In this document: positions 12,390 through 37,275 of the stretch, in pieces
How the letters are laid out: every line of letters begins with the position of its first letter
Position numbering within the stretch: position 1 is the first letter of the stretch
NCBI GenBank assembly: GCA_028824295.1
Contig: JAPPED010000026.1
Span: 1 to 64,000, forward strand
Direction of reading: 5' to 3'
DNA from: Rhodospirillales bacterium
GTDB lineage: Bacteria > Pseudomonadota > Alphaproteobacteria > TMED109
Length of the DNA stretch: 64,000 nucleotides
The notes under the pieces: model-generated
Seen by the model: only the letters and a program-made list of their open reading frames with translations
Databases searched by the model: none
What the model was told of the DNA's origin: nothing
Made by a program: the position numbers and the translations under genes

Positions 12390-12465
12390 GGCCCCTTCGT
12401 CTAGCGGTCCAGGACGCCGCCCTCTCACGGCGGAAACAGGGGTTCGATTCCCCTAGGGGTCACCA
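12390..12465 (+). tRNA. tRNA-Glu (anticodon CTC)
   Basis: 76-nt cloverleaf with an encoded CCA end. Acceptor stem GGCCCCT pairs with AGGGGTC (one G-T pair). The D-arm region is TCTAGCGGTCCAGGA, the anticodon stem CCGCC/GGCGG encloses loop CTCTCAC with anticodon CTC, and the T-arm AGGGG-TTCGATT-CCCCT is perfect. The 3' half of this kind of gene is a frequent integrase target, and the atypical genes that follow begin about 150 bp downstream. Confidence 0.97.
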
Positions 12466-31295: not shown

Positions 31296-32417
31296 TCAAT
31301 TCTCTGCCTCCGCATGCAGAAAGGCGGCAATGTCGTCACGGCTGCAATCCGGCGCCACAAATGCGTCACCGATCGCCCTAGCCAGGACCAGCGGCATCTT
31401 GTCATCGCTTCGGATCTTCTTATCCGACTGCATCTGCCGGACCGCCGTGTCGGCCGACCAAGGCCGGCCCAGCGCTTGCCGCGGAGACGTGGGCAATCCC
31501 ACCTCTGCCAGGTGCCGCGCAATCCGGTCCGCCGTTCCCGCGGCGGCGTGTCCGCGCCGCTCCGAATACCGGAAGGCAAGGACGCAGCCAACCGCCACCG
31601 CCTCGCCGTGGCGCAGGGTGCCATCCATCCCGGCTTCAGCCTCGAGCGCGTGCCCGAACGTGTGGCCCAGGTTGAGCAGGGCACGTCCGCTGTGCTCACG
31701 CTCGTCGTCCGCGACCACCTGCGCCTTGATCCGGCAGCAGCGCTCGACCGCGGTCGTGCGAAGGTCTTCGTCGCCGGCAAGCAGCGCCTGGCCGTGCCGT
31801 TCCAGCCAGCCAAACAGTTCGGCGTCGCCGAGCAGGCCGTACTTCACCACTTCCCCGTAGCCCGCGCGAAGCTCGCGGACGGGCAGCGTCCGCAGGGTCG
31901 CAATATCGGCGAGCACGAGGCGGGGCTGATGGAACACCCCCAGCAGGTTCTTCCCCGCCCGGGTGTTGATCGCCGTCTTGCCGCCCACCGAACTGTCCAC
32001 CTGGGCCAGAAGCGTGGTCGGAGCCTGCACCAACGCCACCCCGCGCAGCACGGTTCCCGCCGCGAACCCGGCCAGATCACCGACGCACCCGCCGCCCACC
32101 GCGTAGACGCTGCAGTCGCGCCGGATTTCAGCTGCCAGCATTCGCTCCACCAGGTGTTCGAACGAGGCATGCGTCTTTGCCGGTTCACCGGACGGAACCT
32201 CGAGAACAGCACGAACCGGCACGCCGGCGTCCCGGAGGGAGTCGACCACCACCGAGGCGTGGTGTTCGGCCACCTCCGGCTCGGTCACGATCAGGGCGGG
32301 CCCGAGGTCCAGTTCGCGGTGGAGCCGCCCAGCCGCGCCCAGCACGCCCGGTCCCACCGCGACCTGGTAAGCCCGATCACCCAGCGGGACGGAGACCTGA
32401 AGGTGCGGCGTGTTCAT
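31296..32417 (-). CDS. aroB: 3-dehydroquinate synthase
   Basis: 373 residues. NAD-binding GGGCVGDLAGFAA, PTTLLAQVDSSVGGKTAIN, KNLLGVFHQP, GYGEVVKYGLL, and the metal-ligand HTFGHALE are all present, with a final His in LRHGEAVAVG. It converts DAHP to 3-dehydroquinate, step two of the shikimate pathway. The ATG at 32417 overlaps the aroK stop (ATGA). An upstream extension to 32633 lies inside aroK and is rejected. Confidence 0.97.
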   Translation of the reverse strand: MNTPHLQVSVPLGDRAYQVAVGPGVLGAAGRLHRELDLGPALIVTEPEVAEHHASVVVDSLRDAGVPVRAVLEVPSGEPAKTHASFEHLVERMLAAEIRRDCSVYAVGGGCVGDLAGFAAGTVLRGVALVQAPTTLLAQVDSSVGGKTAINTRAGKNLLGVFHQPRLVLADIATLRTLPVRELRAGYGEVVKYGLLGDAELFGWLERHGQALLAGDEDLRTTAVERCCRIKAQVVADDEREHSGRALLNLGHTFGHALEAEAGMDGTLRHGEAVAVGCVLAFRYSERRGHAAAGTADRIARHLAEVGLPTSPRQALGRPWSADTAVRQMQSDKKIRSDDKMPLVLARAIGDAFVAPDCSRDDIAAFLHAEAEN

Positions 32418-32995
32418 GCGGTGACCGCGGCGATGGCCGCGAGTGTCCGGCGGACCGTCACTGCATGCGCAACGTCTTCCGAAACGACCACCACATCCGC
32501 CTTTCCGTAGACCGGGTATCGCTTTTCCATCAGTGCCGTCAGCGCATTGCGGGTGCTGTCGCCGGCCAGCAAGGGCCGGGTGGCCGGCCGACGGAGCCGC
32601 CCGACCAGGACGTCGAGCTCGGCGCGCAGCCATACCGAAAGCCCGGTCTGCTTGATATGGGCCCGGTTCGCCGGGCGCAGGAACGCGCCGCCGCCGGTGG
32701 CAATGACCGTTGGAGCACCTCCAAGCAGACGTTTGAGGACCGCTTCCTCCATTTGCCGAAAGGCGTCCTCGCCATCACGCGCAAAGATATCTGAGATCGT
32801 CTGCCCGGCCTCGGCCTCCACCACCGCGTCACTGTCGGCGAACGGCCGACCGAGTGTGTCGGCAAGTCGCCGACCAATGGCGGATTTTCCGGCCCCCATC
32901 AACCCCACGAGCACCAAGTGTCGACGACCGAGCACCTGCGATGCGGCACGGGCATCCGAATCATCGCCCAACGCGTGTGCGCTCCCAGTCTCCAC
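32414..32995 (-). CDS. aroK: Shikimate kinase
   Basis: 193 residues from a GTG at 32995 with GGGGAG nine bases upstream. Walker A is GLMGAGKSAIGRRLA; the shikimate-binding DSDAVVE, GGGAFLRP and RPLLAG follow, with the adenine-lid Arg in that last region. It phosphorylates shikimate at O3. The first 25 residues are a nonconserved extension. It overlaps aroB by 4 bp and is divergent from the small membrane protein gene at 33233. Confidence 0.94.
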   Translation of the reverse strand: METGSAHALGDDSDARAASQVLGRRHLVLVGLMGAGKSAIGRRLADTLGRPFADSDAVVEAEAGQTISDIFARDGEDAFRQMEEAVLKRLLGGAPTVIATGGGAFLRPANRAHIKQTGLSVWLRAELDVLVGRLRRPATRPLLAGDSTRNALTALMEKRYPVYGKADVVVVSEDVAHAVTVRRTLAAIAAVTA

Positions 32996-33232
32996 CGGTG
33001 ACGCTCCCCATAACGATCCGGCAGGCCTGCGTGCGTCCGCCCTGCTGTGTCGCAACAGACGGGCAGTTTACCATGCCGCGACGCGCAGCCGTCCCGGTAT
33101 CAATTCACTCGTCAAGTTCCGTTCGCGGGAGCAGGAGTCAACGGGGGTCTTTCGTCACCAGCGGATTGCCTCTGGCCCGCACCATCTGTTCTATATTGTT
33201 GCCTCAGAGCCAGGCTAGGACCAATTCGAGCA

Positions 33233-33415
33233 ATGTTTGCCCGTCAAGAACAGACTCGTTTGGAGGCGCGGCGCAGAACGCAGATTCTGACTGCGCTGTT
33301 CCTTCTGGCAATCGCCGCGGTTCTGGGTACCGGCGTGTATGTGCTCCTCTCCGTGGACATCACTCCTGAACCTGCACTCGTGGAAGAGCAAATCCCGAAT
33401 GATCGCTTCTTTTGA
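33233..33415 (+). CDS. Small single-pass membrane protein of unknown function
   Basis: 60 residues from the ATG at 33233: a very basic N-terminus (RQEQTRLEARRRTQ), one strong hydrophobic helix (ILTALFLLAIAAVLGTGVYVLL) and a short acidic outer tail. By the positive-inside rule the C-terminus would be periplasmic. The last 17 bp overlap the start of the exported protein gene at 33399, so the two are translationally linked. A TATATT at 33192-33197 could be its -10. I do not recognise the family. The frame, the charge pattern and the overlap argue for a real gene. Confidence 0.65.
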   Translation: MFARQEQTRLEARRRTQILTALFLLAIAAVLGTGVYVLLSVDITPEPALVEEQIPNDRFF

Positions 33416-35333
33416 GCGTATTTCCCGCTTCCTGATTCGTTCCGCCGCCTGTGCCGCCTGCCTCGCGCTCCTGCTGCCGGCCGTCGCGGCCGCACAGGCG
33501 ACGGACCCTGAATCCATGTTGCCTGCCGAGGGCCCGACGGAAGCGGCTGCAGACCAGACACCTGCCGCGACCGGCGAGTCGCCGATCCAGCTCGTACCCA
33601 ACACGACTCCGGACGCCGCCCTCATCGATGACGAGGCGGGTGACGGCGAGGACGAGGTGCCGCCCGCGTTCCAAGTTCCTCAGCTGAACGAAGGCGTCAT
33701 GGTCTCGGACCTGCCCACCGCCCGACCCGGCTGGTTCGGCGTGCTGACCGGGAGTGAAGGCGGCCTCGGGTGGACGATGTGGGAGGGCACCGACGCGGCA
33801 CTCGCGGCACGCCTGCTGGCCGCGGTTCCGGATGCGATCGATTCGCCCGCCATGCGCAGCCTCACCCGCCGCCTGCTCCTGAGTCGCGCCGCGGCGCCGG
33901 AGCGGCCACCGCAGCGCGAAATTGTCCAGCTGGGCCCCGACGGGCAGCCGATCAACACCGACACGGGAGAAGTACCGCACTTCCTTGAGGAACGGATCCG
34001 TCTCCTGGTGCGGCTGGCGGACGGAGAGGGCCTGGCCCTGCTGGCCCAAGCCGTGTCGTCGGACACGGTGGGTCCAGCCCTGGATGAGCGGGTGCTCGAA
34101 GGACGGATCCTGACCGGCGACGCCGAGCAAGCCTGCGCGGAAGTACGACAGCGACTGGCAAATCAGCCGTCCACCCGGCTCCGACTGGCGCTCGCCGTCT
34201 GCCAGATCCGAGGGGGTGCGCTGGACGCCGCGCACCTCACGCTTCAACTTCTGGAGGAAGTGCTCCCCTCCGACACCGTCGTGTCGGCGCTGGCCTATGC
34301 GGTACTGGACGACAGCCCACTGCCGGAAGGGGTGGAGGTCTCCGACGACGATTACTTGGCACTCGCGCTGCTCGCAAGCGGCGGCGAAGCCTTGGTCAGG
34401 TACCAGAATGCCGCGGGTCTGCCCGTGCTGCGGGCGATCGCCGAGACCGCTGCCGGCGACACCGTGCGCCGGATCTATGCCGCCGAGCAGGCGGCGCGCG
34501 TCGGAGCTCTTCGGGATGGCGCCCTGGCGGAAACGTACGCTGCCGTCGAGTTCACGCCCGAGCAGCTCCGTGGCGCCGGAACCCAGGCCGACGCGCTGCA
34601 TCCTGTGCTCGCCCGGGCCCTCCTGTTCCAGGCCGCTCTGAATGCCACGACCACGATTGACCGGGCCCGATTCCTCCGGCTGCTCTGGGACCGGGCCGAC
34701 CCAGATCCCGGCTTCACGGTGATGGCTCAGGTGACCGGGGCGGTCGCCGCTACCGTGAAGCCCCGGCAAGATCTCGCCTGGTTCTCGGTGGCGGCCGCCC
34801 GGGCGCTCCTTGCCGGCGACCGCTACGCGGAAGCCGAGGAGTGGGTCCGGATGCTGACGAGTTCCGCGGACCTCGACTTCATGACGTCGGGCCAGCTTTA
34901 CTCCCTGTTCCCGGCCCTGGCCCTGGTGGGCAGGCCGATACCAGAGCCGTTCGAGGTGTTCCCGCGCGAGGACGTCCGGGCCACGCTCCCGGTAACCGGA
35001 TCGCCGGATGACCATGCCAATCAGCTGAGCCGGCTGCTGGTCGTGCTGGAAGCCATGGATGTGCCGGTTCCGCGAGGGTCCTGGGTGACTCTGCTCGGCG
35101 ACGCTTCGGTGCGAACCACCGCCACGATCCCGAGCGCACCAGCCCGTTACCAGCTGCGAGATGCGGTGGCGAATTCGCGGACGGCGGAGACCGTGCTGTT
35201 CGTATTGTCGATCCTCGGCTCCGGCGGTCCGGCCGCGGCCGATCCGCTGACCCTGAACGCCGCCATCCGCAGCCTGCGAGCGATCGGCCTCACCGACGAT
35301 GCGCGGGCGATCGCGCTGGAGGCCGTCATCTGA
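33399..35333 (+). CDS. Exported alpha-helical-repeat protein of unknown function
   Basis: 644 residues. A signal peptide is visible (FLIRSAACAACLALLLPAVAAAQA, cleavage near residue 29). A low-complexity acidic/Pro-Thr linker follows to about residue 85 (DDEAGDGEDEVPP). The remainder is a long run of Ala/Leu-rich helices in pairs, resembling TPR- or HEAT-like solenoids (for example RLRLALAVCQIRGGALDAAH, and FLRLLWDRADPDPG), without a strict repeat consensus. No catalytic motif was seen. A periplasmic scaffold or assembly role is a guess. It follows the 60-residue membrane protein with a 17-bp overlap and precedes xerD. Confidence 0.75.
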   Translation: MIASFERISRFLIRSAACAACLALLLPAVAAAQATDPESMLPAEGPTEAAADQTPAATGESPIQLVPNTTPDAALIDDEAGDGEDEVPPAFQVPQLNEGVMVSDLPTARPGWFGVLTGSEGGLGWTMWEGTDAALAARLLAAVPDAIDSPAMRSLTRRLLLSRAAAPERPPQREIVQLGPDGQPINTDTGEVPHFLEERIRLLVRLADGEGLALLAQAVSSDTVGPALDERVLEGRILTGDAEQACAEVRQRLANQPSTRLRLALAVCQIRGGALDAAHLTLQLLEEVLPSDTVVSALAYAVLDDSPLPEGVEVSDDDYLALALLASGGEALVRYQNAAGLPVLRAIAETAAGDTVRRIYAAEQAARVGALRDGALAETYAAVEFTPEQLRGAGTQADALHPVLARALLFQAALNATTTIDRARFLRLLWDRADPDPGFTVMAQVTGAVAATVKPRQDLAWFSVAAARALLAGDRYAEAEEWVRMLTSSADLDFMTSGQLYSLFPALALVGRPIPEPFEVFPREDVRATLPVTGSPDDHANQLSRLLVVLEAMDVPVPRGSWVTLLGDASVRTTATIPSAPARYQLRDAVANSRTAETVLFVLSILGSGGPAAADPLTLNAAIRSLRAIGLTDDARAIALEAVI

Positions 35334-35377
35334 CCACCCTCTCGCGGGCACCGGACCGAATTGCGCTCTTTGTCGAC

Positions 35378-36295
35378 ATGCTGGCGGCGGAGCGGCAAGC
35401 CTCACCCCATACGCAGGATGCCTACGCGCGTGACCTCCGTCGGCTGGAGCGTGCGCTGGAGCCACGTGCGACCACCCTGGAAGCCGCGACCGCGGCCGAT
35501 CTCCGGCACTACCTGGGCCTGCTCGCCGCCCGCGGCCTCGCCCGCCGCACGCAGGCACGCCATCTCTCTTCCATCCGCGAGTTCTACCGCTTCCTGCTGA
35601 CCGAGGGTCTCCGCGACGACAACCCGGCAGAAACGCTGCAGTTTCCCAAGCGGGCGCGCACCTTGCCCAAAGTGCTGGACGAGGCCGAGGTAGAGCAGCT
35701 GTTCGAGACTGCGGCCGCCGACTCGAGTCCGCGCGGACTCCGCCTCCAGGCAGCCCTTGAACTCCTTTACGGCACCGGCCTCCGCGTGTCGGAGTTGGTC
35801 GGAATTCCGCTCGCCGCGCTGGCGCCTGATCTCACGGCCCTCACCGTTATCGGGAAAGGCAACAAGGAACGGCGACTGCCCCTCGGAGAACCGGCCCGGG
35901 ACGCGATTCGGGCGTGGCTGGAGGTCCGGGACGCCGAAAGGTCTTCCGCAGCGCCCGCCCGCTGGCTGTTTCCCTCCGGTCGCGGACACCTCACCCGCCA
36001 ACGCCTGGCCCAGTCGCTGAAGGAGCTCGCGGCCCGCGCCGGTATCGCCCCCTCTCGCATCTCGCCGCACGTGCTTCGGCATGCATTCGCGAGCCACATG
36101 CTTGCCCGGGGCGCTGATCTTCGTACCCTGCAGAAATTGCTGGGCCATGAAGACATCTCGACCGTGCAGATCTACACGCACGTTGTCGACGAGTCCGTTC
36201 GCCGCGCGCTGGCCGCTCACCCGCTGGCGCGGCAGCATGCAGCTCCGCACTGTGCCGACGGGACGACGGATGCGCGGACAAAAGGACCCCTATGA
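35378..36295 (+). CDS. xerD: Site-specific tyrosine recombinase XerD
   Basis: 305 residues from the first ATG. All catalytic residues are present: Arg136 (LYGTGLRVSE), Lys160 (GKGNKERRLP), His231 and Arg234 (HVLRHAFASHML), His257 (LLGHEDIST) and Tyr266 (QIYTHV). With XerC it resolves chromosome dimers at dif. The N-terminal SAM-like domain appears about 14 residues short. The sequence upstream in the same frame (RIALFVD before MLAAERQ) looks homologous, and the only upstream candidates are CTG at 35330, overlapping the previous TGA, or ATT. The real start may therefore be non-canonical. It overlaps the next gene by 4 bp. Confidence 0.94.
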   Translation: MLAAERQASPHTQDAYARDLRRLERALEPRATTLEAATAADLRHYLGLLAARGLARRTQARHLSSIREFYRFLLTEGLRDDNPAETLQFPKRARTLPKVLDEAEVEQLFETAAADSSPRGLRLQAALELLYGTGLRVSELVGIPLAALAPDLTALTVIGKGNKERRLPLGEPARDAIRAWLEVRDAERSSAAPARWLFPSGRGHLTRQRLAQSLKELAARAGIAPSRISPHVLRHAFASHMLARGADLRTLQKLLGHEDISTVQIYTHVVDESVRRALAAHPLARQHAAPHCADGTTDARTKGPL

Positions 36296-37275
36296 GCTTC
36301 CAGATCGTCGAACAGGCCACCGCCCGTTTGAACCGCAGCGAATTGTCCGTTCCCGGCAGCCGGCCCGAATTGTTCGAGAAAGCGGCGAAGTCGGCAGCGG
36401 ACATCGTGGTGCTCGACCTCGAGGACGCCGTCGCGCCGGACGACAAGGAGCAGGCCCGAAAGCATGTCGTCTCCGCCCTCAACGATGTCGACTGGGGTGA
36501 CCGTGCCGTCTCGGTGCGGGTCAACGGACTCGATACCGGTTACATGTATCGTGACGTCATCGACCTGCTTGAGCAGACCGGGGACCGGCTGGATCTGATC
36601 ATGATCCCGAAGGTCGGCAATGCCGCCGACGTCTACGCTGTGGACGTGCTGGTATCGCAGGTTGAGCACGCGAAGGGCCGGACCAAGCCCGTCGGTTTCG
36701 AACTGATCATTGAAACGGCGCAGGGCATGGCCAACGTGGACGAGATTGCCGCGGCGTCACCGCGAAACGAGTCGCTGCACTTCGGCGTCGCCGACTACGC
36801 AGCCTCAACCCGCGCCCGCACGACCAGCATCGGCGGCCCGCACCCGGATTACGGCGTGCTCACCGATTTGCTGGAGGGCGAGGAACGCGCCTACCATTGG
36901 GGTGACATGTGGCACTACGCGATATCACGGTTGGTGGTGGCAGCCAGGGCAGCTGGACTTCGTCCGATTGATGGGCCATTTGGCGATTTCTCGGATCCGC
37001 ACGGCTATCGCGCGCAGGGAAACCGGTCAGGCGTGCTCGGCTGCGAAGGGAAGTGGGCGATCCATCCTTCCCAAGTGCCGCTGGCCAACGAATTGTTCAG
37101 CCCGTCCGAGCAGGACATCGTCCAGGGACGGCGAATTCTCGAGGCAATGCACAAGGCGCAACGCGAAGGGGCAGGGGCGGTGGCGCTCGACGGTCGAATG
37201 ATCGACATCGCTTCGATCAAGCAGGCCGAGAATCTGGTCAGGAAGGCGGACCAGATCCGTGGGTCGGCGGGCTGA
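36292..37275 (+). CDS. CoA ester lyase, HpcH/HpaI aldolase family (L-malyl-CoA / beta-methylmalyl-CoA lyase type)
   Basis: 327 residues. It has the citrate lyase beta/malyl-CoA lyase signatures: LSVPGSRPELFEKAAKS, VVLDLEDAVAPDDK, SVRVNGLDT, MIPKVGNAADV, FELIIETAQGMANVDEIA (metal-binding Glu), LHFGVADYAAST and CEGKWAIHPSQV. The length and the DYAAS.RARTTSIGG region fit Mcl1-type lyases, which cleave malyl-CoA to glyoxylate and acetyl-CoA or act on methylmalyl-CoA. It could serve the ethylmalonyl-CoA pathway, none of whose other genes are here. It overlaps xerD (ATGA) and precedes accA by 11 bp. Confidence 0.88.
   Translation: MSFQIVEQATARLNRSELSVPGSRPELFEKAAKSAADIVVLDLEDAVAPDDKEQARKHVVSALNDVDWGDRAVSVRVNGLDTGYMYRDVIDLLEQTGDRLDLIMIPKVGNAADVYAVDVLVSQVEHAKGRTKPVGFELIIETAQGMANVDEIAAASPRNESLHFGVADYAASTRARTTSIGGPHPDYGVLTDLLEGEERAYHWGDMWHYAISRLVVAARAAGLRPIDGPFGDFSDPHGYRAQGNRSGVLGCEGKWAIHPSQVPLANELFSPSEQDIVQGRRILEAMHKAQREGAGAVALDGRMIDIASIKQAENLVRKADQIRGSAG

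Follow-up and report, generated by a model that had tools for sequence, protein, structure and literature searches.

An undescribed pair of genes points to an unrecognised unit of the cell envelope in Alphaproteobacteria. The pair recurs over much of the class at a near-fixed site between housekeeping genes and is named by neither of the family libraries searched (Pfam and NCBIfam), and thus appears to be a missing part of alphaproteobacterial envelope biology. One gene encodes a small single-pass membrane protein and the other a large exported protein, for which we favour, at a probability of roughly 0.4, the role of a TPR-like adaptor in the periplasm that the small protein brings to the inner membrane, the two forming an envelope module. 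According to this model the large protein would be exported, lose its signal peptide and fold in the periplasm as a disulfide-stapled TPR-like solenoid, and it would bind proteins as an adaptor or scaffold. The small protein would sit in the inner membrane with its N-terminus inside and its conserved tail in the periplasm, where the tail may draw the solenoid, or a third partner common to both, to that membrane; the overlap between the genes would couple synthesis of both proteins. In a broader and more tentative formulation, the unit could be an ancestral alphaproteobacterial envelope machine, with an inner-membrane core of ∼44–60 amino acids bearing a conserved periplasmic docking tail and a disulfide-stapled solenoid as its accessory. 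Such a machine would be one retained in several genomes of 1.2–2 Mb and in divergent families within the class.

The window (the whole 64,000-nucleotide stretch of DNA that was analysed) comes from a draft genome of 3.0 Mb in 35 contigs. Within it, the small gene lies at 33233–33415 on the plus strand (ATG at 33233, stop at 33413–33415) and encodes a 60-amino acid single-pass membrane protein, MFARQEQTRLEARRRTQILTALFLLAIAAVLGTGVYVLLSVDITPEPALVEEQIPNDRFF. The large gene follows at 33399–35333 on the same strand (ATG at 33399, stop at 35331–35333) and encodes a 644-amino acid exported protein, predicted to be an all-helical TPR-like solenoid. From the sequence, the two overlap by 17 bp (33399–33415, plus strand), and the ATG of the large gene (33399–33401) falls within the AAT GAT (Asn-Asp) codons of the small gene. 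The divergent neighbour is the shikimate kinase gene aroK (32414–33055, minus strand; Pfam SKI), and downstream lies the tyrosine recombinase gene xerD (35378–36295, plus strand; Phage_integrase). These frames and flanks confirm what an earlier note on this DNA had described, namely a 60-residue single-pass protein overlapping by 17 bp a 644-residue exported one, between the aroK side and xerD. Beyond aroK, on the divergent upstream side, are a gene that we take by recognition to be aroB and then a CNNM/CorC-type gene, while xerD is followed by an HpcH/HpaI-family gene, accA and an MFS gene. A simple sigma-70 scan of 32900–36400 returned no plus-strand promoter. The sole Rfam match at the gathering threshold in the window is a tRNA gene at 12390–12462.

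Both genes are real. The start of the 60-amino acid frame agrees with relatives from the genus (L006, L008), where a stop lies immediately upstream in frame, and seven genomes of the genus, counting the window's own, all have the frame at 60 codons. When the genus's two subclades are compared, dN/dS is 0.08–0.15 for the small frame outside the overlap and 0.17–0.23 for the large gene; within subclades, changes in the small gene are too few to judge, with ratios from 0 to 1.9. The low between-subclade ratio outside the overlap, together with conservation across the class, argues that the small frame is not a product of chance.

Distribution and pairing of the two genes

A single-sequence search found the large gene in 39 of 61 relatives. 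With an 18-sequence profile (A1) it was detected in at least 201 of the 289 genomes sampled from the window's class, which is a lower bound because the profile missed copies such as that of genome G256 (128.8 bits with a larger profile). In a phylum sample of 299 genomes, the window's class included, all 59 with a large-gene match belong to that class. An alignment of the small protein matched 235/289 genomes across the class at E ≤ 1, a threshold that lets noise in, and this figure is left unused. Named matches include Sneathiella, Kiloniella, Thalassobaculum, Oceanibacterium and Hwanghaeella, as well as metagenome-assembled genomes (MAGs) of Magnetovibrio and Pelagibius. The pair is also present in a MAG labelled Rhizobium sp. 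Q54 (L210), a name that may be wrong. No large-gene match was found in the listed 6–8-Mb genomes of families f150 and f151, and one genome (G088) has two long matches (L075 and contig 52, 1197–2882), indicating a paralogue or contamination (listed at 5%).

A link to the elongasome was considered via MreC, which is present in 269 of the 289 class genomes. The large gene is matched in 194 of these 269, and also in seven of the 20 genomes without MreC (G037, G070, G078, G194, G217, G278 and G282), so there is no strict link between the two.

The 141 large-gene loci collected (one, plus the 30 best single-sequence matches, the 30 best A1 matches and 80 picked from the remaining A1 list) came to 130 once duplicates were removed. 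A small-protein HMM matched no more than 600 bases from the start of the large frame in 121 of the 130 at E < 0.01, with one of these matches (L141) doubtful. The other nine comprise a contig end (L019), a locus with a clear small frame farther off (L125), three with diverged candidates seen by eye (L122, L133, L136) and four in which neither the HMM nor inspection recognised a small frame beside the large gene (L110, L118, L121, L135). Another 20 loci, taken from divergent families, gave HMM matches in 15 cases at i-E < 0.25, ten of them below 0.05; a small frame was seen by eye in one more (L251), and no such frame could be recognised next to the large gene in L257–L259 (all family f60) or L265. 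The f60 loci have large open frames of 419, 756 and 447 amino acids, with aroK and xerD nearby. The earlier note had allowed that the small frame might be absent from relatives that keep the large gene; this is mostly not so, although a few lineages have the large gene with no recognisable small frame.

The converse comparison gave a similar picture. A scan of a named genome collection with the small protein yielded 296 relatives in 357 stretches, of which the best 80 were kept, and these loci resemble the query because they were chosen as the best-scoring. The large gene is next in 78 of these 80, the remaining two being contig edges (L189, L216), and in one locus (L146) the large frame begins only some 400 bases after the small gene. 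aroK was found in 72/80 and xerD in 74/80, and five Kiloniella loci have xerD and no aroK match. Of the 57 named loci with a measured overlap, 52 have one of 20 bp; the other 21 of the 78 were dropped by the script's length filter on the small call. This, with the wide co-occurrence, upholds the earlier proposal of a two-gene unit with coupled frames. After removal of the xerD, aroK and aroB signals, distances for the small and large proteins remain correlated across 150 loci (partial r 0.24, 0/300 permutations), which is weak given that, with two controls, the small protein and xerD give 0.205 and the large protein and xerD 0.384. Overall, a functional link between the two genes is well supported, and a physical, membrane-tethered complex of their products is an inference.

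What speaks most strongly against an obligate complex is that the small gene can occur with no large gene at the locus; the loci where a large gene has no recognised small frame at its side count against it too. A small gene of this kind was seen in ten of 20 loci picked because their large-gene match was weak or absent (L228–L234, L236–L238), with xerD next after the small gene in seven of the ten, and the A1 profile found no large-gene match in the genomes concerned. Families f16, f98 and f119 hold genomes both with and without the large gene, so it has probably been lost several times while the small gene stayed. Two of the ten loci, L234 and L237, are in 1.5-Mb genomes; they keep the small gene with a CorC-type gene near, and no aroK, xerD or large-gene match was found within their 3.5-kb flanks. 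Since the two genes can be retained apart in nature, the contributions of each should be separable genetically, and a culturable Alphaproteobacterium could be used to split them.

The same mixed families lend themselves to an alternative that we consider rather unlikely yet the best of those weighed here: that the small protein has an inner-membrane partner of its own, such as an enzyme or transporter under its regulation, and that the large protein belongs to the same process and is dispensable, the overlap only setting co-expression. The tail of the small protein also looks intact at loci where the large gene has gone and xerD is next (L231, WDLPAPTKTVEKTIPNDRFDR; L232; L238), as this alternative would predict. 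However, in most of the loci inspected the pair stands together, and the genes overlap in the named loci where this was measured, which speaks against this alternative.

Export signal, cysteines and predicted fold of the large protein

The signal sequence covers residues 1 to ∼32 of the large protein (33399–33494, plus strand) and ends in AVAAAQA, and A32 and Q33 are each conserved at 90% or more. Two cysteines lie in its hydrophobic part, neither of them, by eye, in a lipobox. Crude patterns recognised a signal-peptidase-I-like start in 166 of 240 distinct large frames and a lipobox-like start in only three. The clearest of the three is L141 (genome G037), with the lipoprotein-like start LLTAC-SS and a doubtful small frame upstream, as though the small protein had given way to a lipid anchor.

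Past the signal, two cysteines are found in 77/77 sequences: Cys246, on the helix spanning 242–255 (codon 34134–34136, plus strand), and Cys268, on the helix spanning 259–271 (codon 34200–34202, plus strand). They are the only cysteines past residue 35 in 66 of the 77. In the model they are mirrored on facing helices, nine residues to each side of one hairpin turn, which makes a Cys246–Cys268 disulfide likely. AlphaFold2, supplied with the 77-sequence alignment, gave an all-helical prediction (pLDDT 85.1, pTM 0.81) consisting of the signal helix, a low-confidence stretch at ∼31–100 and then 30 helices that start at residue 133 and run to the C-terminus; residues 395–644 modelled alone reached pLDDT 89.4 and pTM 0.87. 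The signal-peptide-like start and this model agree with the exported helical solenoid described in the earlier note. The N-terminal part also carries a conserved GGLGxDMWxGT segment.

Searches with the large protein pointed to no close relative among named families or solved structures. The best Pfam match was TPR_19 at residues 241–298, with 21.4 bits against a cut-off of 25; just one of the 77 members matched TPR_19 at E ≤ 0.01, and Pfam and NCBIfam together returned for the 77 only families matched by one member each. The large protein thus stays outside the known families of both libraries, as had been claimed. The accompanying claim of no known motif stands insofar as no cut-off in either was reached, and has to be qualified by the sub-cut-off TPR resemblance of residues 241–298. 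A sequence search of solved structures gave a best E of 0.72 with the single sequence and nothing by profile, and no relative turned up in viral contigs. Foldseek returned no row at E of 0.001 or less. The best VIA match had Z 11.2 (rmsd 16.5 over 252 residues), where the tool's guide value for helical proteins is ∼13, and the C-terminal part superposed on the TPR array 5aio with Z 7.7 (rmsd 2.6 over 64 residues). LbcA, MamA, BamD, LapB and Slt are among the Foldseek and VIA rows, and none stands out. As far as the model goes, the matches are to generic TPR and other solenoid chains, and finding no close fold does not prove that the fold is new.

Another alternative makes the large protein the equivalent, in Alphaproteobacteria, of LbcA (Pseudomonas, partner of CtpA) and NlpI (E. 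coli, partner of Prc), the TPR adaptors of C-terminal processing proteases in the periplasm, with the small protein replacing the lipid anchor; the link to such proteases is no more than an analogy. For the C-terminal part, Foldseek lists LbcA first, although at E = 0.63, and the 30 helices after the signal helix may be compared with the 29 in the TPR spiral of LbcA, as given in PMC8764530. The three lipobox-like starts, above all that of L141, could be read in the same way. Nevertheless, we regard this as improbable, as there is no significant structural or sequence match, the window's large protein lacks the lipobox Cys of the LbcA/NlpI lipoprotein signal, and no protease was found among the six window neighbours scanned.

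The conserved tail of the small protein

The small protein has a basic N-terminus, one hydrophobic helix (approximately residues 18–39, by eye) and a conserved C-terminal tail, which in the window's genus reads VDITPEPALVEEQIPNDRFF and has the consensus (W)D-I-P-A-P-x3-V-E-K-V-I-P-N-D-R-F. A P-x-P anchor, required by the pattern used, is carried by 169 of 218 tails, and among these the key positions are retained at high frequency (W 0.91, D 0.88, I 0.86, E 0.89, K/R 0.88, P 0.86 and F/L 0.97). The sole Pfam row for the small protein was VirB8, at 13.8 bits against a cut-off of 23.2 (residues 4–51), and the NCBIfam entry for twin_helix small proteins scored 14.2 against 49 bits over residues 18–39 only.

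The tail is conserved as a peptide. Among the 206 loci that have the large gene, 148 place its start codon within the N-D codons, which forces AAT or GAT there. This explanation of N-D is partly true and accounts for neither W-D-I-P-A-P nor V-E-K, both of which sit upstream of the start codon. In 20 loci where the large gene starts elsewhere, some of them close relatives, N-D-R-F-like ends persist with AAC in 13/14 Asn and GAC in 6/6 Asp codons. These 20 are the only loci among the 58 outside the N-D start type in which such an end was found by pattern, and it is missing by pattern in 38 of the 206. Where the large gene is absent, five of the ten loci have an N-D-R-F-like end by pattern, none with an ATG, and N-D-R-F together with the ATG is found in a sixth (L233). 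A Shine-Dalgarno explanation of V-E-K is unsupported: GTG is used for 40/119 of its Val codons versus 174/581 in the background, and since the Val codon is not shifted to GTG there is no such signature.

That the small frame acts chiefly as a translational leader, coupling and tuning translation of the large gene through a peptide without function, would suit the 148/206 starts inside the N/D codons and the scarcity of the N-D-R-F-like end elsewhere, but is highly improbable given that W-D-I-P-A-P and V-E-K precede the start codon, the latter with no Shine-Dalgarno signature, that the small frame has a dN/dS of ∼0.1, that the tail is retained in several loci without the large gene, and that its end persists with AAC or GAC where the start lies elsewhere.

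Comparison with known systems

Periplasmic TPR-like proteins are an already known kind. Some automatic annotations presumably call proteins such as the large one antifreeze-glycopeptide related; the literature on that naming offered nothing useful, and the open-access literature searched yielded no paper on the pair, for which earlier annotations may exist. The large protein may resemble TPR proteins (Pfam TPR_19) in its predicted stacked helical hairpins, has the weak match at 241–298, and differs from them in its sub-cut-off score, its two-cysteine hairpin and its GGLGxDMWxGT segment.

LbcA is an outer-membrane lipoprotein, as its description states (PMC8764530). It too is a large all-helical periplasmic TPR spiral, whereas the large protein studied here starts with a signal of the signal-peptidase-I type and is paired with a small membrane protein, and the match between the two is not significant.

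BamD, LapB, YfgM and CpoB are envelope TPR proteins that act as scaffolds, as the large protein would. VIA aligned BamD with Z 9.9 over 157 residues at 16.3 Å and LapB with Z 9.7 over 191 residues at 14.8 Å, loose matches that are level with those to unrelated chains from eukaryotes. In YfgM and LapB the membrane helix is part of the same protein, whereas in this pair it is on the separate small protein.
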